A model generated the notes under the pieces. It was not told the origin of the DNA and searched no databases. It saw nothing but the letters and a program-made list of their open reading frames with translations. 64,000 nt of DNA, taken from NCBI GenBank assembly GCA_029101005.1, contig JAQXQE010000017.1, forward strand, positions 16,803-80,802, given 5' to 3'. The stretch is from Bacillota bacterium. Lineage in GTDB: Bacteria > Bacillota > Clostridia > Peptostreptococcales > Anaerovoracaceae. The position numbers were made by a program, and so were the translations under genes. Below are positions 12,907 through 25,507 of the stretch, one piece after another (within the stretch, counting starts at the first letter, position 1; every line of letters begins with the position of its first letter).

Positions 12907-13611
12907 ATGGCTATCAAATACAATAGAGTACTGATTAAGCTTAGCGGAGAAGCTCTTGCAGGTGAGCAGGGCTTCGGCGTTAACCCAGAGATGACACTTC
13001 AGACTGCTGCACAGATCAAGGAGATCCGTGATATGGGCGTGCAGGTTGGTATCGTAGTTGGTGGAGGCAATTTCTTCAGAGGAAGAACTGGCAAGAGCAT
13101 CGACAGACCAACAGCTGACTATATGGGAATGCTCGCAACAGTTATGAATGCACTTGCACTTCAGGATTCACTTCTGTCAATTGGTTGTGAGGCGAAGGTT
13201 ATGACTGCTATCGAGATTAGAGATATGGCTGAGGGATACTCAAGAAGAAAGGCTCTTGATTATCTTGATGAGGGTAAGGTAGTAATCTTCGGTGGCGGAA
13301 CGGGAAGCCCATTCTTCACAACTGATACAACTGCAGCTCTCAGAGCAGCAGAAATTGGCGCAGAGGTTCTCCTCCTCGCCAAGAACATCGATGCAGTATA
13401 TTCTGCAGATCCTAAGATTGATCCTAATGCTGAGAGATTTGAGGAACTCTCATACATGGATATAATTGAGAAAGACCTTAAGGTAATGGATTTAACGGCA
13501 GCTACTCTCTGTAAGGATACATCGACTAAGATATATGTATTCGCTCTTGCAGAAGAGGGCAATCTCATGAGAGTGGTTAACGGCGAGAACGTCGGAACCC
13601 TGATTCAGTAA
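12907..13611 (+). CDS. pyrH: UMP kinase
   Basis: [19 protein letters not shown]...[11 protein letters not shown]. Confidence 0.97.
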
Positions 13612-13628
13612 TTAAACGGAGGATAGAT

Positions 13629-14183
13629 ATGTCTCACCACAAGAAGACTTTTGAAGAGAGAATTGAGAAGACTTATGAAGTTCTCGGCGAGAATCTCAAT
13701 ACAGTAAGAGCAGGAAGAGCAAACGCTGCACTTCTTGACAAGGTAATGGTTTCATACTATGGAGTACCTACACCACTTAAGGCTCTGGCTAATATTTCAG
13801 TTCCAGATCCAAGAACAATTATGATTACACCATTTGATGTTAAGTCAGTATCAGATATCGAGAAAGGTATCAACGAGGCTAACATCGGAATCAACCCAAC
13901 AAATGATGGTAAGGTAATCAGACTCGTAGTACCACAGCTCACAGAGGAGAGACGTAAGGAGCTCCAGAAGGTTGTTAAGAAGTATGGCGAGGATGCTAAG
14001 GTTGCTATCAGAAATCTCAGAAGAGAGCATAACGATGTTCTCAAGAAGATGGAGAAGGAAGGCGAGCTTACAGAGGACGATTGCAAGAAGGAGCTTGATG
14101 CTACTCAGAAGACAATCGATAAGGCTGTTAAGCACATCGATGAGATTATCGAGAAGAAGACAAAGGAAATTATGGAAGTATAA
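13629..14183 (+). CDS. frr: Ribosome recycling factor
   Basis: LNTVRAGRANAALLDKVMVSYYGVPTPLKALANISVPDPRTIMI. Confidence 0.97.
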   Translation: MSHHKKTFEERIEKTYEVLGENLNTVRAGRANAALLDKVMVSYYGVPTPLKALANISVPDPRTIMITPFDVKSVSDIEKGINEANIGINPTNDGKVIRLVVPQLTEERRKELQKVVKKYGEDAKVAIRNLRREHNDVLKKMEKEGELTEDDCKKELDATQKTIDKAVKHIDEIIEKKTKEIMEV

Positions 14184-14190
14184 GTCAAAC

Positions 14191-14218
14191 AACGTGGCCT
14201 CTGGCCACGTGTTTGCTA
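14191..14218 (+). terminator. Hairpin between frr and uppS
   Basis: acgtggcc-tct-ggccacgt-gtttgctattt. Confidence 0.55.
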
Positions 14219-14234
14219 TTTAAGGGAAAGTGCT

Positions 14235-14978
14235 ATGATAGACAAGAATAAACTACCTGTTCATGTTGGAATCATCATGGACGGCAACGGAAGATGGGCT
14301 AAGCAGAGAATGCTTCCTCGCGTTATGGGACATAATGCAGGTATGGAGGCAATGAAGAAGATTGTTATTGCCGCTTCTAATATGGGAATTAAGCATTTGA
14401 CTGTATACGCCTTCTCAACAGAGAACTGGAAGAGAAGCGTTGAGGAGGTCAATGGAATCTTCAAGCTAATCGTTAAGTATGTTAATTCTGAACTGCAGGA
14501 ACTCATCGACAATAATGTTCACATCAATATTCTCGGTGAGTATGATATGCTCCCTCAGGATTCGGTTGAAGCGATTGATAAGCTCCTATCTTCGACAGCT
14601 GGCGATGATGGTCTTACGTTCAATATTGCTCTTAACTACGGTGGAAGAGATGAGATCGTAAAGGCTGTAAGGGCACTCTACGAAGAGAAGAAGAATCAGG
14701 AAGAGCAGGGAGTATTCATAGAGATCACAGAGGATGATATCAGCAGATACCTCTACACAGGTTCTGCTAATCATGATATTCCAGATCCTGACCTCATCAT
14801 CAGAACAAGTGGTGAGGAGAGAATGTCCAACTTCCTTGTGTGGCAGGCTGCATACAGTGAGCTGATGTTCACTGATACACTATGGCCTGACTTCACAGCT
14901 GAGGAGTTTGAGCAGATGGTGGAGAAGTTCACTCATCGTAACAGACGCTTCGGAGGAAGAAAGGAAGAAGACAAATAA
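14235..14978 (+). CDS. uppS: Isoprenyl (undecaprenyl) diphosphate synthase
   Basis: HVGIIMDGNGRWAKQRMLPRVMGHNAGMEA ... IRTSGEERMSNFLVWQAAYSELMF. Confidence 0.97.
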   Translation: MIDKNKLPVHVGIIMDGNGRWAKQRMLPRVMGHNAGMEAMKKIVIAASNMGIKHLTVYAFSTENWKRSVEEVNGIFKLIVKYVNSELQELIDNNVHINILGEYDMLPQDSVEAIDKLLSSTAGDDGLTFNIALNYGGRDEIVKAVRALYEEKKNQEEQGVFIEITEDDISRYLYTGSANHDIPDPDLIIRTSGEERMSNFLVWQAAYSELMFTDTLWPDFTAEEFEQMVEKFTHRNRRFGGRKEEDK

Positions 14979-15009
14979 GATATATCCGTAGACTAAAGGT
15001 GGGTTTATT

Positions 15010-15813
15010 ATGAAGACAAGAGTTATTGCGGGCCTCTGTATGGCTCCATTACTGGTTATTATCTATTTCGGAGGAACTGCGCTTGCGATTGCTGCTGCAC
15101 TTATCGCACTCATGGGCGTAACTGAGTTCTATAAGGGTTGGGAAGCACTTGGTGTTAAGCCTTGCAAGAATCTTGCATACGTGATGATTGCTGTCCTCTA
15201 TGCAGGTCACTTCATTCTTGGCGCAGACCAGGTATTCATTATGGCATGGCTCTTCGTATCAATTACAGCTGCTATGATCTACGGCTGGGATCTTGAGAAG
15301 AGAGGTCCATACGATGCTATGGCTACAGTTCTTGGACTTGTGTATGTAGTATTCTTCTCATACCATATCGTTCTGATTGACTGCACTCTCTGGGGACAGC
15401 TCGTATGGCTAGTAGTAATTGCGGCTTTCGGATCAGATATTATGGCATACTTCTCAGGCTACCTCTTTGGTAAGCACAAGCTTGCACCGGTACTGAGCCC
15501 TAAGAAGACTATTGAGGGTGCTATTGGAGGTTTTATTGGAGCAGGCTTCTTCTGCGGACTCTTTGCATATATTTTCTTCGATCACGGAATGCTCGTTCAC
15601 TATATCATCGTAGGACTGATTGGAGGAGCGTTCTCTCAGGCAGGAGACCTCACAGCATCTGCATTCAAGCGTAAGATGGGCATCAAGGATTACGGTAATC
15701 TCATCCCTGGACATGGTGGAATCATGGACAGATTTGACAGCATTCTCTTTGTTGCACCACTCGTGTATTACTACATCGCCTTTGTACTTAAGGTAGCGAC
15801 AATATCATGGTAA
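15010..15813 (+). CDS. cdsA: Phosphatidate cytidylyltransferase
   Basis: Polytopic; FGKHKLAPVLSPKKTIEGAIGGF...KDYGNLIPGHGGIMDRFDSILF. Confidence 0.96.
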   Translation: MKTRVIAGLCMAPLLVIIYFGGTALAIAAALIALMGVTEFYKGWEALGVKPCKNLAYVMIAVLYAGHFILGADQVFIMAWLFVSITAAMIYGWDLEKRGPYDAMATVLGLVYVVFFSYHIVLIDCTLWGQLVWLVVIAAFGSDIMAYFSGYLFGKHKLAPVLSPKKTIEGAIGGFIGAGFFCGLFAYIFFDHGMLVHYIIVGLIGGAFSQAGDLTASAFKRKMGIKDYGNLIPGHGGIMDRFDSILFVAPLVYYYIAFVLKVATISW

Positions 15814-16955
15814 AAAGAATTATTATTATGGGCAGCACCGGTTCTATCGGTTGCCAGGCCCTCGATATTATCAGAGACAATCCTGACAAGTTCAAGGCTG
15901 TTGCTCTCACATGTAACAGCAGAGTTGATGACATTGTCGGACAGATCAGAGAATTTGCTCCTGAGGCTGTATGTGTCGGACGAGAGGAAGACGCGCGCAG
16001 ACTCCAGCAGCTTTTCCCTGAGGTGACGATATACTTTGGTTCAGAGGGACTTGTCGAGCTTGCCAAGCTTGATGCGGATATGGTTCTCAATTCTCTCATG
16101 GGTATCAGCGGACTTGAGCCAACATATGCTGCGATTAAGACTGGCAAGGACATTGCACTTGCGAATAAGGAGACACTCGTTACGGGTGGAGCACTGATTA
16201 CTGAGCTCTGTAAGGAGAAGGGCGTTAAGCTTCTTCCTGTAGACAGCGAGCACAGTGCCATCTTCCAGTGTCTGCAGGGCAATATGAATCAGAAGATCAA
16301 GAGAATTCTGCTGACATGCTCGGGTGGTCCGTTCAGACACGCGAGCCTTGAGGATCTTGAGAGTGTTACTGTCGAGCAGGCTCTCAATCATCCAAAGTGG
16401 AATATGGGAAGCAAGATTACAATCGACTCTGCGACAATGATGAACAAGGGTCTTGAGGTTATCGAGGCAAAGTGGCTCTTTGATGTTGAGCCTGAGCAGA
16501 TTCACGTTCATATTCATCCGCAGAGCATTGTGCATTCAATGGTAGAGTTTGAGGATACATCGGTAATTGCACAGCTTGGACTTCCAGATATGAGAATTCC
16601 AATCAGCTATGCTTTCAATTATCCTGACAGACTGCCATATAAAGGCGATAGTCTTGACTTCTTCACAACTGGCGCTGATCTTCACTTCGAGAAGCCTCGT
16701 ACAGAGGTTTTCCGTAGCATCGACCTCGCATATGAGGCCCTGCGTGAAGGCGGAAGTGTCCCGGTTGTACTGAACGGAGCTAACGAGGAACTCGTTGCGC
16801 TTTTCCTTGCGGGTAAGATTAAGTTCCTCGATATTCAGAGAACGGTAGAGAAGGTGATGGATGTGCACACACCTTCTGTTCCTAAGACGGTAGAAGAGAT
16901 TATTGCCATTGACGCTTATTCAAGGGCCAAGGCAAGAGAAATTGTAGGTAGATAG
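15807..16955 (+). CDS. dxr: 1-deoxy-D-xylulose 5-phosphate reductoisomerase
   Basis: IMGSTGSIGCQALDII, ALANKETLVTGG, LPVDSEHSAIFQCL. Confidence 0.97.
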   Translation: MVKRIIIMGSTGSIGCQALDIIRDNPDKFKAVALTCNSRVDDIVGQIREFAPEAVCVGREEDARRLQQLFPEVTIYFGSEGLVELAKLDADMVLNSLMGISGLEPTYAAIKTGKDIALANKETLVTGGALITELCKEKGVKLLPVDSEHSAIFQCLQGNMNQKIKRILLTCSGGPFRHASLEDLESVTVEQALNHPKWNMGSKITIDSATMMNKGLEVIEAKWLFDVEPEQIHVHIHPQSIVHSMVEFEDTSVIAQLGLPDMRIPISYAFNYPDRLPYKGDSLDFFTTGADLHFEKPRTEVFRSIDLAYEALREGGSVPVVLNGANEELVALFLAGKIKFLDIQRTVEKVMDVHTPSVPKTVEEIIAIDAYSRAKAREIVGR

Positions 16956-17960
16956 ATGTTAGTAACTGCAGTACTATTCGTACTTATGCTACTCATCCTT
17001 GTAATTCCGCATGAGTTCGGTCACATGATTGTGGCTAAGATGTGCGGTGTGCAGGTTAATGAGTTCTCGGTGGGCATGGGCCCGCTGATATATCAGAAGC
17101 AAAAAGGAGAGACGATGTATTCGATACGCCTCCTTCCGCTCGGAGGTTTCTGCGCGATGGAAGGTGAAGACGAAGACAGCGACAATCCTAGAGCATTCAA
17201 TAACAAGACGGCAGCTCAGAAGATTGCAATTCTTCTTGCTGGGGTATTCATGAATGTGGTGATTGCTATACTCGTATGCATTATCACATTCACAGCGGCA
17301 GGAATAGCTGTCAACACAATTGATACTGTAGCTGACGGTTCACCTGCAGCAGTAGCAGGACTTGAGGCTGGAGACAAGATTATCGAGGTTGACGGCCAGA
17401 AGGTCAGCAGATGGTCTGATACAGTTCTCGCAATCGCTGAATACCAGGAGGGTGATAAACTTGAGATGACAGTTCAAAGAGACAATCAGCTCAAGACAGT
17501 ATTTATTGTGCCGGAATTCAACGAAGAGGTTCAAAGATACACAATCGGCATTACAGCTGGAGTATCGCACAATATCATTCAGACGGTGCCTTATGGTGTC
17601 TACTACACCAAGCAGCTGAACAAAGTGATGATAGAGTCATTCAAGATGCTCTTCACAGGCAAGGTGTCGAAGGATGAGTTATCTGGACCTGTTGGACTAG
17701 TTAAGATCGTAGATCAGACTAAGGCGAATTACACTTCATACCTGCTGCTTCTGGCTCTGGTAAGCCTTAACCTTGCTATATTCAATATTCTGCCATTTCC
17801 AGCTCTTGATGGAGGAAGAATTCTCTTCGTGCTGATAAGACTGGTAACGGGTAATGCAATCTCGGACGAGATGGAGGGAACAGTCCACACGATTGGAATG
17901 CTACTTCTTCTCGGACTGTTCGTGTTCATAACATTCAACGATATTCTCAATTTTTTCTAA
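16956..17960 (+). CDS. rseP: RIP (site-2) metalloprotease
   Basis: HEFGHMIVAKMCGVQVNEFSVGMGP, PDZ domain, LPFPALDGGRILF. Confidence 0.95.
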   Translation: MLVTAVLFVLMLLILVIPHEFGHMIVAKMCGVQVNEFSVGMGPLIYQKQKGETMYSIRLLPLGGFCAMEGEDEDSDNPRAFNNKTAAQKIAILLAGVFMNVVIAILVCIITFTAAGIAVNTIDTVADGSPAAVAGLEAGDKIIEVDGQKVSRWSDTVLAIAEYQEGDKLEMTVQRDNQLKTVFIVPEFNEEVQRYTIGITAGVSHNIIQTVPYGVYYTKQLNKVMIESFKMLFTGKVSKDELSGPVGLVKIVDQTKANYTSYLLLLALVSLNLAIFNILPFPALDGGRILFVLIRLVTGNAISDEMEGTVHTIGMLLLLGLFVFITFNDILNFF

Positions 17961-17975
17961 TTGCAGGAGACTGAT

Positions 17976-19037
17976 ATGACTTTAAGTGTAAATTGCGGTG
18001 GCGTACAGATTGGTGGCGGTGCTCCAGTATCAATTCAGTCTATGACTAATGTCGACACAAGAGATACCAAGGCACTTCTCAGACAGATTGATGAGCTTGC
18101 TGATGCAGGTTGTCAAATCATAAGAGCGGCTGTTCCAGATATGGAGGCAGCTGAGTCGTTTGCGCGTGCCAAGAAGGAAGCTAAGATACCAATGGTTGCC
18201 GATATTCATTTCGATTACAAGCTCGCTCTCGCTTCAATAGAGGGTGGTGCAGATAAGATCAGAATTAACCCTGGTAATATCGGAAGCATTGAGAATGTAC
18301 GCAAGGTTGTAGATGCTGCAAAGGAGAGAAATATACCTATCAGAGTTGGTGTTAATTCTGGCTCGCTTCAGACGGATATCAGAGAGAAGTACAACGGAGT
18401 GACTGCTGCAGCTCTTGCTGAGAGCGGACTGGCAACACTCAAGATTATCGAGGATATCGGATATGATCAGCTCGTAGTATCCATCAAATCATCTGATGTT
18501 AAGATGAATTATGATGCACATATGATGCTCAAGGATATGACTGATCATCCTATACACATCGGTATTACCGAATCTGGTACACCCGAGAATGGTAAACTAA
18601 AGTCTGCAGTAGGAATTGGAAGCCTGCTCCTCGCTGGAGTGGGAGATACTATGCGTGTATCCCTTACAGATAATCCTGTTAACGAGGTTATCTGGGCTAG
18701 ACGCATTCTTGAGACAGTAGGTCTCAGGGAGAAGAGCTTTGAGATTGTCTCATGTCCTACATGCGGAAGAACAGAGATTGATCTGATTGGTCTTGCACTC
18801 GAGGCAGAGGCGAGACTTGCGAAGATTGGAGAGATTAGAGCTGCTCAGGGCAAGAAGCCTCTCAAGGTTGCAGTTATGGGCTGTGCGGTTAACGGACCGG
18901 GAGAGTCAAGAGAGGCTGACTATGGAATTGCTGGAGGAAGAGGGGAAGGACTTGTCTTCGCTCACGGCGAGATTATCGAGAAGGTACCTGAAGAGCAGCT
19001 TATCGATAGATTATTGGAGATAATTGCGAATGATTAA
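17976..19037 (+). CDS. ispG: 4-hydroxy-3-methylbut-2-en-1-yl diphosphate synthase
   Basis: VSIQSMTNVDTRDTKALLRQIDELADAGCQIIR; CPTCGRTEID; ATG at 17976 preferred over TTG 17961. Confidence 0.96.
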   Translation: MTLSVNCGGVQIGGGAPVSIQSMTNVDTRDTKALLRQIDELADAGCQIIRAAVPDMEAAESFARAKKEAKIPMVADIHFDYKLALASIEGGADKIRINPGNIGSIENVRKVVDAAKERNIPIRVGVNSGSLQTDIREKYNGVTAAALAESGLATLKIIEDIGYDQLVVSIKSSDVKMNYDAHMMLKDMTDHPIHIGITESGTPENGKLKSAVGIGSLLLAGVGDTMRVSLTDNPVNEVIWARRILETVGLREKSFEIVSCPTCGRTEIDLIGLALEAEARLAKIGEIRAAQGKKPLKVAVMGCAVNGPGESREADYGIAGGRGEGLVFAHGEIIEKVPEEQLIDRLLEIIAND

Positions 19038-22000
19038 ATTTCCTCAGGGATTACTGACAACTGAAGAACTTGTGCAGGCATCCGGGCTCAAAGTCAATGA
19101 TATTGATATTGAGCTCAAGGATGTCGCACTCGACAAGAAGAGCATGGTGTTGATTATCTACATCAGGCTCAATTTTGTGTTGAGCGCAAGATATGAGAAC
19201 ATCCTCAGAAGAAGAATCACTGATATGGTCGGACCAGTTAAGGACATTCGCTTTGACTATATGTACGACTTCCCTAAGCCAGCTGAGCACTCAGCACCAG
19301 CTCAGGAGAGTAGACCTCAGTGGAATGGTGGCGGCGGTGGCTACAGAAGAAAGCAGGATAATGTCAGAACTGGAGATGCGATAATCGGTCGTGACTTCAG
19401 CGATGCACCGATAGCTTACGATGCGGCGCTGGAGAAGGTAGGAAGCAAGGACGCCTGCGTCGTAGAAGGCGAACTTTTTGCAATGGAAGAGAAGCCTATC
19501 AGAAATGACAGAACTCTTCTTACTATCGCAATCGCAGATAAGTCGAGAACTCTTTGTGCGAAGGCATTCATGGACGAAGATGGCCTTGCGTACTTCAAAG
19601 AGAAGGTCAAGGATGGTGACAGAATCAGAATCAAGGGCAGCATGGAGTATGACACCTATGCGAATATGCCTGCGCTTATGATTAAGTCACTCAAGAAGGC
19701 TGAGGGCAAAGCTCAGAAAGAAGATAATTATCCTAATGGCCGCAGAGTTGAGCTTCATATTCACAGTAAGTTCAGTGATAATGATGGCTTCAACGAAGTA
19801 GCTGATATTGTTAAGACTGCTGCTCGCTGGGGACAGCCTGCAGTTGCAATTACTGATCACGGTGTAGTTCAGGGCTTCCCTGATGCGGCGAATGCAGCGA
19901 AGAAGCTCAAGAAGAGCAAGGATATCGACATCAAGGTAATCTTCGGACTGGAGGGATATCTTTTCCCTGACGAAGATGCGAAGAGAGAAGACGGCACGAT
20001 TGATATTAAGAAGCACGGTACATACCACATCATCCTTCTTGCTAAGAACAAGACTGGTCTTAAGAATCTGTACAAGCTTGTATCGTTCTCACACATAGAT
20101 TACTTCTACAGAAGACCGAGAATTCCTCGTTCGGTGCTCGAGGAGCATAGAGAGGGTCTGATTATCGGAAGTGCCTGCGAGGCGGGCGAGCTCTATCAGG
20201 CGATTAGACGTGGCGAGGATGAGGAGACGCTGCTTAAGATTGCGGATTTCTACGATTACCTCGAGATTCAGCCGCTTGCGAACAACCAGTTCCTCATCAA
20301 TGAGGGCTATGTCAATGACAGACAGGACCTCGTTGATAACAACCTCAAGATTCTTGAGCTTGCAGATAAGCTCGGTAAGCCTTGTGTTGCGACAACTGAC
20401 TCTCATTATCCTACACAGGATGCGGCTATCTACAGAAATATCATCATGAAGGGTATCGGATTCAAGGATACCGAGTCGGACAATCTCTATATGAGAACAA
20501 CTGAGGAGATGATGAAGGAGTTCTCGTACCTTGGGGACAGGGCTGAAGAGGTTGTAATCACAAATACAAATAAAATTGCAGATATGTGCGAGGTTTTCGA
20601 TCCAGTACCGGATAAGAAGTTCCCTCCTAAGATTGAGGGTGCCGAGGAGAAGCTTCGTAGCAGCTGCTATGAGAAGGCAAAGTCAATATATGGAGATCCT
20701 TTGCCAGAGGTAATCGAGGAGAGACTTGAGGCCGAGCTCGTCCCAATCATTCGAGAGGGATATGCCGTGATGTACGTTGCGGCTCAGCTGCTCGTAGCGA
20801 AGTCAATGTCAGATGGATACCTCGTAGGAAGCCGAGGTTCTGTTGGTTCATCATTTGCGGCGACAATGGCAGGAATTACTGAGGTTAACCCTCTTGATCC
20901 GCACTATGTCTGCCCTGAGTGCAAATACCTCGAATTCGGTGACCTCAACCAGTACGACTGCGGTTTCGATATGCCTGAGAAGAACTGCCCTAAGTGCGGT
21001 GCTAGACTTCACAAGGATGGACTGGCTATTCCTTTCGCGACCTTCCTTGGATTCAAGGGCGACAAGGAGCCTGATATCGACCTTAATTTCGCCGGTGAGT
21101 ATCAGCCAATCGCTCATAAGTACGTTGGAACTATCTTCGGAGAGAAGAATGTATATAAAGCGGGTACTGTAGCTACACTGCAGGATAAGACCGCATTCGG
21201 TTACGTTAAGCATTACTTTGATGAGAAGGGAATGAATCCATCGAAGTATGATATAGATTATCTGGTAAAAGGTTGTGTAGGCGTTAAGCGTACGACAGGC
21301 CAGCACCCAGGAGGTATCATCGTCGTGCCAGACGATCACGAGATCTACGAATTCTGTCCTGTTCAGAAGCCTGCCAATAAGGTGGATGTCGACGTAATCA
21401 CAACTCACTTCGACTACCATAAGATTGACCAGAACCTTCTTAAACTTGATATACTCGGACACGATGCTCCGCAGCTCCTGAGACATCTTCAGAACCTGAC
21501 AGGAGTGGAGCCGATGAGCATTCCTTTCGATGATCCTGAGACACTTAGCATCTTCACTTCACTTGATGCTCTCAAGATCAAGAATCCGGATTATCAGTTC
21601 ACTCACGGAACATATGCTATCCCTGAGTTCGGAACGAACTTCACACGAGGAATGCTTGACGATATCAAGCCTAAGACAGTATCTGCTCTCATCAAGATGT
21701 CAGGATTCTCACACGGAACTCTCGTATGGCAGGGTAATGGTCAGGATCTTCTTCTCAAGGATGAGAGACTTAAGGATGTAATCAAGGGCGAGGACATCAC
21801 AATCGATGACCTCATCTCAAGCCGAGACGATATCATGCGTTACCTGATTCTTCACGGCATTGATAAGAGTGAATCCTTCAAGATCATGGAGAAGGTAAGA
21901 AAGAACAAGGTTCTGACAGAAGAGGAGCTTGAGCTTATGAAGAGTCATGGAGTACCAGACTGGTATATCTGGTCATGTGAGACTCTGACTTATCTCTTCC

Positions 22001-22527
22001 CTCGTGCCCACGCATCGGCCTACGTAATGATGTCGATTCGTATGGCATGGTTCAAGATTAATCATCCAGCGGCATTCTATGCTGCATACTTCACATCTAA
22101 GGTTGATGACTTCGATGCTGAGGCAATCTACGGCGGATATGATGGAGTAATGGCTAAGATCAAGGAGATTCAGGAGCTCGGTAATGCTGCAACTGCGAAG
22201 CAGAGGACTACACTCATCGTTCTTGAGGTAATGTATGAGATGTTATCAAGAGGCTATGAATTCGCTGAGCCTGAGCTTGGAGTATCGCATCCAACTAACT
22301 TCATTGTTGTAGATGGTAAAGTTAAGCTTCCATTTATGGCAATTCAGGGTGTTGGAAGGACTGCTGCAGAGTCGATTGCTGAGGCATATAAGGAGAAGGA
22401 CTTCTTCACACTCGATGATGTGTGCCAGAGAACTAAGCTTTCGGCTAGCAATATCGAGGATCTGAAGCGCCACGGCATGTTCACAGAACTGCCAGAGTCA
22501 GCACAGATGAGCATTTTTGATTTCTAG
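19024..22527 (+). CDS. polC: DNA polymerase III PolC-type alpha subunit lacking the 3'-5' exonuclease domain (1167 aa)
   Basis: OB fold, PHP (ELHIHSKFSDNDGF...AITDHGVVQGFPDA), zinc finger (YVCPECKY...CPKCGARLH), GQHPGGIIVVP, C-terminal clamp-like motif QMSIFDF; no DxE exonuclease motif. Confidence 0.95.
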   Translation: MRMIKFPQGLLTTEELVQASGLKVNDIDIELKDVALDKKSMVLIIYIRLNFVLSARYENILRRRITDMVGPVKDIRFDYMYDFPKPAEHSAPAQESRPQWNGGGGGYRRKQDNVRTGDAIIGRDFSDAPIAYDAALEKVGSKDACVVEGELFAMEEKPIRNDRTLLTIAIADKSRTLCAKAFMDEDGLAYFKEKVKDGDRIRIKGSMEYDTYANMPALMIKSLKKAEGKAQKEDNYPNGRRVELHIHSKFSDNDGFNEVADIVKTAARWGQPAVAITDHGVVQGFPDAANAAKKLKKSKDIDIKVIFGLEGYLFPDEDAKREDGTIDIKKHGTYHIILLAKNKTGLKNLYKLVSFSHIDYFYRRPRIPRSVLEEHREGLIIGSACEAGELYQAIRRGEDEETLLKIADFYDYLEIQPLANNQFLINEGYVNDRQDLVDNNLKILELADKLGKPCVATTDSHYPTQDAAIYRNIIMKGIGFKDTESDNLYMRTTEEMMKEFSYLGDRAEEVVITNTNKIADMCEVFDPVPDKKFPPKIEGAEEKLRSSCYEKAKSIYGDPLPEVIEERLEAELVPIIREGYAVMYVAAQLLVAKSMSDGYLVGSRGSVGSSFAATMAGITEVNPLDPHYVCPECKYLEFGDLNQYDCGFDMPEKNCPKCGARLHKDGLAIPFATFLGFKGDKEPDIDLNFAGEYQPIAHKYVGTIFGEKNVYKAGTVATLQDKTAFGYVKHYFDEKGMNPSKYDIDYLVKGCVGVKRTTGQHPGGIIVVPDDHEIYEFCPVQKPANKVDVDVITTHFDYHKIDQNLLKLDILGHDAPQLLRHLQNLTGVEPMSIPFDDPETLSIFTSLDALKIKNPDYQFTHGTYAIPEFGTNFTRGMLDDIKPKTVSALIKMSGFSHGTLVWQGNGQDLLLKDERLKDVIKGEDITIDDLISSRDDIMRYLILHGIDKSESFKIMEKVRKNKVLTEEELELMKSHGVPDWYIWSCETLTYLFPRAHASAYVMMSIRMAWFKINHPAAFYAAYFTSKVDDFDAEAIYGGYDGVMAKIKEIQELGNAATAKQRTTLIVLEVMYEMLSRGYEFAEPELGVSHPTNFIVVDGKVKLPFMAIQGVGRTAAESIAEAYKEKDFFTLDDVCQRTKLSASNIEDLKRHGMFTELPESAQMSIFDF

Positions 22528-22553: not shown

Positions 22554-23795
22554 ATGGAATTATATTTACCGATTATTCTTGATGGCGCTACTGGAAGCCA
22601 GCTCGCAAGATGCGGATATGACGGCAAGACCTGTGCAGAGAAGTGGACTGTAGATAATCCGGATTCTGTACTCTGGCTTCACGATGCATATGCGTCAGCT
22701 GGTTCGGATATTGTTTATGCACCGACATTCCAGGCAAATGAAGCAAAGCTTGCGGAGGCTGGTTATGCAGGCTTCACTGACGAATGCAACAAGATTCTTG
22801 TTGGCCTTTCAAAGAAGGCTGTTGATGGAAGATGCTATGTTGCAGGAGATATCTCGCCAATCGGCAAGTTCATCGAGCCACTCGGAGAATCAAGTTTTGA
22901 TGAGATTCACGACATATACCTCGGCCAGATTAAGGCTCAGGACGAGGCTGGTGTAGAACTCTTTGCTGTAGAGACGCAGATGACTGTTCCTGAGGCAAGA
23001 GCAGCTTTTCTCGCTGCAAGAAGCATAGGAGATAAGCCTATATTTGTCAGCTTTACAGTTAATGATGAAGGCAAGACTCTGACTGGAACGGATATCACTG
23101 CTGCGCTCGTAATCTTCCAGGCTATGGGAGCTGCGGCATTTGGAATTAACTGCTCAGCAGGACCAGATATGGTTCTTAAGCAGATTAAGAGATTAGCTGA
23201 ACTCAATGAGATTCCTCTGATTGCTAAACCTAACGCAGGTCTTCCGGAGATCATTGATGGCAAGACTGTATATAATTGTCCACCTGAAGAATTTGCTTCA
23301 TTCGTTCCAGAACTCGCTGCTAATGGAGTTGGAATCTTCGGCGGATGCTGCGGAACTACTGAAGACCACATTGCTGCACTATATAAAGTAACTAGAGATA
23401 TCGAGATTAAGAATCCTATTCTCGTTGAAGACAGATTCCCAGGCATGCTTGTAGGAGCTACTGAGAAGAAGGTATGGATGCTTCCAGAGGGAAGTGTATG
23501 TGAATACTGGCTCGATTGCGATGCATCAATTGAGACAAAGCTCGATGATGCCCTTGAAGCTAAGACTGAGGTTCTCGGAATCAGAATTGCTGATGAGGCA
23601 TCACTTGCAATCTTCGAGAAGATTCAGGGTTTAATCAGTCTGCCACTCTGCATCGAGGCTGATGATGCAGCTGTTCTCGATAGAGCACTTAGACTCTATC
23701 AGGGAATTGCTATGTACAGAAGCGCACTCGATGAGGTAACAGCATCAGAGATTGCGAACTTGTACGGAGCAATCAGAGAGGGGGACAGAAGATGA
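22554..23795 (+). CDS. Homocysteine S-methyltransferase domain protein
   Basis: LDGATGSQLARCGYDGKTCAEKWTVDNPD..., IFGGCCGTTEDHIAAL zinc-binding CC motif; extra ~120 aa C-terminal region. Confidence 0.88.
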   Translation: MELYLPIILDGATGSQLARCGYDGKTCAEKWTVDNPDSVLWLHDAYASAGSDIVYAPTFQANEAKLAEAGYAGFTDECNKILVGLSKKAVDGRCYVAGDISPIGKFIEPLGESSFDEIHDIYLGQIKAQDEAGVELFAVETQMTVPEARAAFLAARSIGDKPIFVSFTVNDEGKTLTGTDITAALVIFQAMGAAAFGINCSAGPDMVLKQIKRLAELNEIPLIAKPNAGLPEIIDGKTVYNCPPEEFASFVPELAANGVGIFGGCCGTTEDHIAALYKVTRDIEIKNPILVEDRFPGMLVGATEKKVWMLPEGSVCEYWLDCDASIETKLDDALEAKTEVLGIRIADEASLAIFEKIQGLISLPLCIEADDAAVLDRALRLYQGIAMYRSALDEVTASEIANLYGAIREGDRR

Positions 23796-25507
23796 AGCCA
23801 GCAGAATTATTTCTCGAGACAATAAAGAAAGGCGGCAAGCCTGAGAGACAGCTCAAACAGTATGAAGCTCTCGGTTTCGTCGGTAATGACCCAATTAACC
23901 TCTACCTCAGAGAGAATGAAGGTCCTGGTAAGGAAGGTGAGGACAAGTGGGGTGTGTATATCATCTATCCTGAAGATGCCCCTGGTAAAACTCCGTATAT
24001 CACGGAGGAGAACAAGGTTCTCAAGGATATCACAAGATGGCGTGACTATGTTCATCTGCCGGACATAGAGACTGCGGCCCTTGGCGACTGGGATGCTCCA
24101 AGAGCTAAGGCTGAAGCAATCAGAGCAGAGGGCAAACTCGCAACTGTTCTGATGGGAACAGGTATCTTCGAGCAGGTTCACTTCCTCATGGGATTCGAGG
24201 ATGCACTTACTGCGCTTATCGAGCATCCAGATGAGATGCACGAACTTATTGAGTGCATAACTGAATACAGAATCAGATATGCTGTGCATATATGTGATAA
24301 GCTTCACCCAGACGTTATTCTCTCGCATGATGACTGGGGAACTAAGAATGCTCTCTTTATGAAACCTGAGATATGGAGGGAATTCTTCAAGGAACCATAC
24401 AGAAGATTCTATGAGGCCATTCGTTCGCGCGATGTAATCGCAATTCACCATGCTGATTCATATCTAGTTCCTATTGTTGAGGATATGGTAGAGATAGGAA
24501 TTCAGGTATGGCAGGGCGTGCTTCCAGAGAACAATGTGCCTAAGCTTCTAAGACAGCTCGATGGTAGAATGGCTCTTATGGGAGGCATCGGCGCCGTTAT
24601 CGACAGATCAGATGTCAAGGAAGATGAAGCAAGAAGATATATCAAGTCAGTTCTCATTGAGTGCTGCAGATACAGCAATTTCATCCCTTGCATCACATAC
24701 GGTGGTCCTGGAACAGTATTCAAATTCGTAGATGGATATATCAACGATGAGATAGATAAGTATAATAATAGGCTCCACATAAGATTCGACCTCGGAAAGC
24801 CAGAAACATCAGCTGATACTTCAAAGATTCTAGGTGTTCAAGCAGAGGCCGACGAAGAAGAGTCTGGAGATATCCTATTTGAGATTGCAAAAGCAGTCGA
24901 GAAGGGACAGGCTTCTAAAGTGGTTAAGCTTCTCGAAAGCGAGGAAGCTAGCGCGCTCGAACCAAAACAGATTCTCGATGAGGCATTGATTGTTGCTATG
25001 AATAAAGTTGGCGAGGACTTCTCTGATGGCGAGGTATTCGTTCCCGAGATGCTACTCGCAGCAAAGGCTATGCAGGCTGCACTTGAGATTCTGAGACCAA
25101 AGATGGTCGATGACAATGCGGAGTCTCTTGGTAAGGCTTGTATTGGAACTGTCAAAGGCGATCTTCACGATATCGGCAAGAACTTAGTTAAGGTAATGAT
25201 GGAAGGATCCGGTATCGAGGTAATCGATCTTGGAACTGATGTATCTGCAGAGAAGTTCGTTCAGACAGTAAAGGATGAGGGCTGCGATATCATCTGCTGC
25301 TCATCACTTCTCACAACAACAGTATGGGAGATGAAGAATGTTGTAGATGCCTGCAAGGATGCGGGAATCAGAGACGATGTTCTCATTATGATAGGCGGTG
25401 CACCTGTTACTCAGCATTTCTGCGAAGAGATTGGAGCAGATATCTACTCGGTGGATGCTGGACAAGCAGCAAAGAAAGCCGTAGAGGTACTCAAGCAGAG
25501 AGCGTAA
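23792..25507 (+). CDS. Uroporphyrinogen decarboxylase-like (MtaA/MtbA-type) methyltransferase fused to a corrinoid-binding protein
   Basis: N-terminal URO-D/methyltransferase region (HDDWGTKNALFMKPEIWREFFKEPYRRFYEAI); C-terminal B12 cap and Rossmann region with GTVKGDLHDIGKNLV (DxHxxG). Confidence 0.85.
   Translation: MKPAELFLETIKKGGKPERQLKQYEALGFVGNDPINLYLRENEGPGKEGEDKWGVYIIYPEDAPGKTPYITEENKVLKDITRWRDYVHLPDIETAALGDWDAPRAKAEAIRAEGKLATVLMGTGIFEQVHFLMGFEDALTALIEHPDEMHELIECITEYRIRYAVHICDKLHPDVILSHDDWGTKNALFMKPEIWREFFKEPYRRFYEAIRSRDVIAIHHADSYLVPIVEDMVEIGIQVWQGVLPENNVPKLLRQLDGRMALMGGIGAVIDRSDVKEDEARRYIKSVLIECCRYSNFIPCITYGGPGTVFKFVDGYINDEIDKYNNRLHIRFDLGKPETSADTSKILGVQAEADEEESGDILFEIAKAVEKGQASKVVKLLESEEASALEPKQILDEALIVAMNKVGEDFSDGEVFVPEMLLAAKAMQAALEILRPKMVDDNAESLGKACIGTVKGDLHDIGKNLVKVMMEGSGIEVIDLGTDVSAEKFVQTVKDEGCDIICCSSLLTTTVWEMKNVVDACKDAGIRDDVLIMIGGAPVTQHFCEEIGADIYSVDAGQAAKKAVEVLKQRA

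Follow-up and report, generated by a model that had tools for sequence, protein, structure and literature searches.

The PolC-type DNA polymerase III α subunit encoded in the window (the whole 64,000-nucleotide stretch of DNA analysed here) lacks the DEDDh exonuclease that, lodged inside the PHP domain, is a hallmark of PolC, and the absence of this domain is genuine. The protein is probably a functional replicase whose exonuclease was lost in its lineage, with proofreading most likely exercised through the PHP site, in an older and still intact domain of the enzyme, and with MutS and MutL behind it: sequence comparison gives this composite reading a good measure of confidence.

The gene and its product

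The source organism is a gut-type anaerobe, kin to Mogibacterium, with a 1.6 Mb genome. It encodes one PolC and one DnaE and no C-family polymerase besides; a second, full-length polC, against which the first-pass annotation had wished to guard, is not present. The open reading frame, 19024-22527, specifies 1167 amino acids from TTG 19024 or 1165 from ATG 19030, and the ATG is the more likely start because alignment with most relatives begins at residue 2 or 3. The product scores 1253 bits against TIGR01405, the NCBIfam PolC equivalog (curated cut-off 1043; the main matching stretch covers profile positions 372-1211), and 1342 bits against PRK00448 (cut-off 873), which makes it a member of the PolC type. 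The gene order in which it stands, pyrH-frr-uppS-cdsA-dxr-rseP-ispG-polC, is the customary one in Gram-positives; directly downstream (22554-25507) are homocysteine methyltransferase-like and corrinoid-protein-like methyltransferase genes.

Table 1. Features of the polC region (window positions; residues numbered from TTG 19024)
Feature	Position	Strand	Basis or remark
pyrH-frr-uppS-cdsA-dxr-rseP-ispG	12907..19037	+	Neighbours upstream of polC; cdsA under its curated cut-off
polC (exonuclease-less PolC-type DNA polymerase III α subunit)	19030..22527	+	ORF translation, NCBIfam, relatives
OB-fold domain, residues 146-210	19459..19653	+	Under Pfam cut-off; aligns with Geobacillus PolC
PHP domain, nine metal ligands intact	19750..20406	+	Pfam and alignments
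24-residue junction (GYLFPDEDA ... TIDIKKHGTY), site of the DnaQ-like exonuclease in canonical PolC	19954..20025	+	Alignments
Polymerase core DNA_pol3_alpha, residues 542-732, with PDIDLNF catalytic motif	20647..21219	+	Pfam, alignment
Polymerase finger domain, residues 818-964	21475..21915	+	Pfam
Tandem helix-hairpin-helix domain, residues 1081-1158	22264..22497	+	Pfam
QMSIFDF, C-terminal	22504..22524	+	ORF translation

The domains are laid out in Table 1. The C-terminal QMSIFDF is presumably, from what is established for PolC, a motif of the β-clamp-binding type. An AlphaFold2 model computed from 18 sequences (mean pLDDT 79, pTM 0.61) finds its best fold match in Geobacillus PolC, 3f2b (E 1.2e-93; TM 0.71 by query, 0.82 by target). 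Domain order and core are indeed those specific to canonical PolC, as represented by B. subtilis and by Geobacillus kaustophilus 3f2b. The 3f2b chain also has no exonuclease residues between its PHP halves, and the window protein thus resembles a naturally occurring counterpart of the crystallised form; only from the window PolC, however, is the exonuclease naturally missing.

A genuine absence

Two profiles speak to the absence directly. Pfam RNase_T gives no match to the window PolC at E<=1, and a profile constructed on 42 exonuclease domains from clostridial PolCs, which matches every PolC with the usual long insert (92/92), matches none of the 113 PolCs that have no long insert, that of the window among them. 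The first-pass annotation had described a PolC without its DnaQ-like DEDD exonuclease, lost cleanly and in frame, the two PHP halves being joined by a linker of ~20 residues, and all of this stands: 24 residues separate E310 from H335, against about 208-219 (~212) in exonuclease-bearing PolCs, the reading frame is intact, and Pfam sees a single unbroken PHP domain (residues 243-413).

Could the gap be an error of assembly or binning? The genome is fragmented (27 contigs), which lends the thought whatever credit it has; but the gap recurs in each of the 80 nearest named relatives, some of them isolates, so that it is no assembly deletion, and with the frame intact the idea is scarcely credible. 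The short insert of these relatives (Candidatus Crickella, Mogibacterium, Emergencia, Aminicella, Hornefia and others, among them the isolate Mogibacterium pumilum ATCC 700696) measures 22-39 amino acids, and exactly 24 in 72 of the 80.

Had such polymerases already been catalogued? The first-pass annotation left this as a question, and the answer is yes. Timinskas et al. found in 2013 that 6% of PolCs have no Exo insertion, all of them, but for one extra Thermotogae copy, from Clostridia and Negativicutes (PMC3919608). The window PolC likewise has the order OB, PHP, Pol3, HhH, a continuous PHP domain without Exo, a clostridial host and a DnaE1 partner (DnaE1 by analogy). It differs from that variant in no architectural respect and adds to it a further member, from an Anaerovoracaceae-type lineage (Candidatus Crickella, Mogibacterium).

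History of the loss

Among the 102 genomes of the window's family with a PolC over the cut-off, the extents of the profile matches show the exonuclease region matched in 12 and skipped in 90. In the rest of the order, every sampled PolC that covers the region has the exonuclease, and the sampled PolCs of the other families offer no clear-cut instance of loss; elsewhere in the class, exonuclease-less or exonuclease-unlike PolCs occur in nine further family groups (f16, f20, f22, f31, f44, f47, f55, f56 and f59). On a tree of the polymerase core with the insert removed (FastTree; long branches flagged), the state of the exonuclease requires at least 8 changes. Exonuclease loss is, as read from these comparisons, recurrent in several clostridial families.

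In the polymerase core, the 12 exonuclease-bearing PolCs of the family do not form a single clade (the AU test rejects it, p 0.006). Their exonuclease domains do form one (support 99), apart from 30 other clostridial ones, with internal groups that agree with the core groups. Since they form this single clade of their own, re-acquisition from a foreign source is disfavoured and vertical inheritance with losses is preferred; regain by recombination within the family is a further alternative. The junction retains the marks of both flanks: the N-side pattern (GYLxDD-like) is found in 95 of 99 exonuclease-less and 10 of 12 exonuclease-bearing family rows, the C-side pattern (IDYK-like) in 87 of 99 and 12 of 12. 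The retention of the exonuclease by 12 genomes of the same family, the family's own exonuclease lineage and the preserved flank patterns thus support a history of secondary loss, in which clean losses would have followed upon an exonuclease-bearing ancestor.

Three states of PolC coexist in the window's family: exonuclease-bearing, exonuclease-less and absent. At least 13 of its genomes have DnaE and lack a PolC that reaches the PolC cut-off, a pattern that is consistent inside several genera (G011, G022, G023, G029, G038, G040, G064, G065, G068, G073, G090, G094 and G108); these are apparent DnaE-only members of a PolC + DnaE1 family.

Other variants deserve mention in their own right. Two PolCs of family group f44, in the same class (L209, L213), have a PHP insert of 150-161 amino acids without catalytic residues, whose resemblance to the exonuclease domain in profile comparison is no more than faint (probability 25%) and which may be a decaying intermediate of exonuclease loss. 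Three others (L216, L217 and L221; family group f47, same class) are about 1650-1705 amino acids long, with a PHP insert of 327-347 amino acids that the exonuclease profile does not recognise and that has none of its DEDD motifs; this insert may be a much altered exonuclease or some other domain. Finally, in a complete one-contig genome of the window's family, polC is split across two frames near profile position 988 (G057:C1:1239517-1242017), a frameshift or sequencing error.

Who proofreads?

For fidelity, the first-pass annotation had offered a separate DnaQ-like subunit, the PHP domain, or a reduced standard. The first of these fares badly. A profile search of the host genome, which is 99.6% complete, gives 0 matches to RNase_T, hence no recognisable DnaQ and no stand-alone subunit of the kind that defines a DnaQ/ε-dependent replicase. 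(A technical note: gene absence is judged here by profile searches; as a control, RNase_T finds matches in 10 of 14 control genomes.) By cross-tabulation of two listings, RNase_T is also absent from 64 of the 90 exonuclease-less genomes of the family. Nor has the exonuclease domain split off to another place in the host genome: the PolC exonuclease profile returns only a weak match of 18 residues, in a 374-amino-acid RNase_H_2 protein (G000:C6:45.4-46.5 kb). This protein, the sole DEDD-like one of the host, has a DIETTG motif, and we take it to be of the YprB type. A Pol A-type exonuclease (PF01612) is represented by two sub-cut-off matches only; the one region that was read encodes a transporter ATPase and permease.

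The YprB-type protein, or else a DnaQ that has escaped recognition, might proofread in trans, much as E. coli-type replicases employ a separate ε subunit. That the host encodes a protein with the DIETTG motif speaks for such an arrangement; but 115 of 121 family genomes encode YprB-type proteins irrespective of PolC state, the exonuclease-bearing ones included (as does B. subtilis), so that these proteins do not track the loss. Together with the missing RNase_T matches in the host and in most of its exonuclease-less relatives, this makes proofreading in trans decidedly improbable.

The PHP site is the best candidate, because the genome has no RNase_T and all nine PHP ligands are intact (H245, H247, D254, H279, E310, H335, C385, D459 and H461). 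Across the PolC alignment (210 rows, some duplicated between searches) the nine are readable and intact in 209, the exception being a truncated fragment; in an 18-row alignment, ligands and polymerase motifs are invariant. The window PolC fits, by its residues, the motif HHDHEH[C/H]DH, which a 2026 survey scores as an active proofreader (PMC12926913). Proofreading by a nine-ligand PHP site is established for Mycobacterium tuberculosis DnaE1 (PMC5636811), in whose chain, as in the window PolC, there is no DnaQ domain; that enzyme is of the DnaE1 type, however, not a PolC, and the PHP activity of the window protein is a predicted one. Geobacillus PolC, with one ligand changed, is reported to have no PHP activity (PMC5636811); by alignment its eighth ligand is N, in place of D459, which is consistent with that report.

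Three points tell against so simple a reading. The ligands are equally intact in exonuclease-bearing clostridial PolCs, and their conservation is consequently not specific to exonuclease loss (the alignment reveals no PHP difference between the two kinds of PolC); Geobacillus PolC, with its one altered ligand, shows no PHP activity; and there is the YprB-type protein already described. Catalytic activity of the PHP site, and its part as the main proofreader, are matters of prediction.

Might PolC instead do without effective proofreading, relying on nucleotide selection and MutSL, or have become the reduced partner of a DnaE1 that is now the main accurate replicase? Exonuclease loss is recurrent, and the family genomes with DnaE and no PolC above the cut-off make PolC seem less indispensable there. 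Set against this is the invariance of PHP ligands and polymerase motifs over deep divergence among exonuclease-less PolCs, unlike the PHP domains of DnaE3-type enzymes, which are reported to be disrupted (PMC3919608). On balance, PolC without effective proofreading, or in a reduced role, is unlikely.

The preferred scheme, with PHP as proofreader, can be set out as follows: 1) An in-frame excision would have removed the DnaQ-like exonuclease lodged within the PHP domain, leaving both flanks and a short loop. 2) Proofreading would fall mainly to the Zn-dependent PHP site in the PolC chain itself. 3) The partner would be a DnaE1 with a likewise intact PHP site: the search for dnaE that the first-pass annotation proposed finds a DnaE with a complete ligand set (HVH...SLLDG, TDHG, GCE, HLILLA, SACLAG, NDAH), assigned to DnaE1 by analogy with Clostridia (PMC12926913). 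4) Errors that escape would be repaired by MutS and MutL, likewise searched for and present, adjacent to each other (987 and 505 bits).

What the loss may mean

Exonuclease-less PolC as such is not new; what is added here is the history of the loss, a genome without a recognisable DnaQ, and a family in which the three PolC states coexist. For annotation the lesson is one of caution: a PolC of ~1170 amino acids should not be taken for a truncated one. Clostridia mostly have three predicted active proofreaders (PMC12926913); here one of the three is gone, with no recognisable DnaQ substitute, while sister genomes within the family have retained the exonuclease, so that the relative weight of the proofreaders in PolC systems could be tested through the mutation rates of close relatives. 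The wider proposition, that this is a clostridial lineage in which the DnaQ domain of an exonuclease-bearing ancestor was lost repeatedly, leaving the PHP site as the only polymerase-linked proofreader, has about an even chance of being right. If it is, the family, with its exonuclease-bearing, exonuclease-less and PolC-free members, would be a natural experiment on whether PHP proofreading makes DnaQ redundant.
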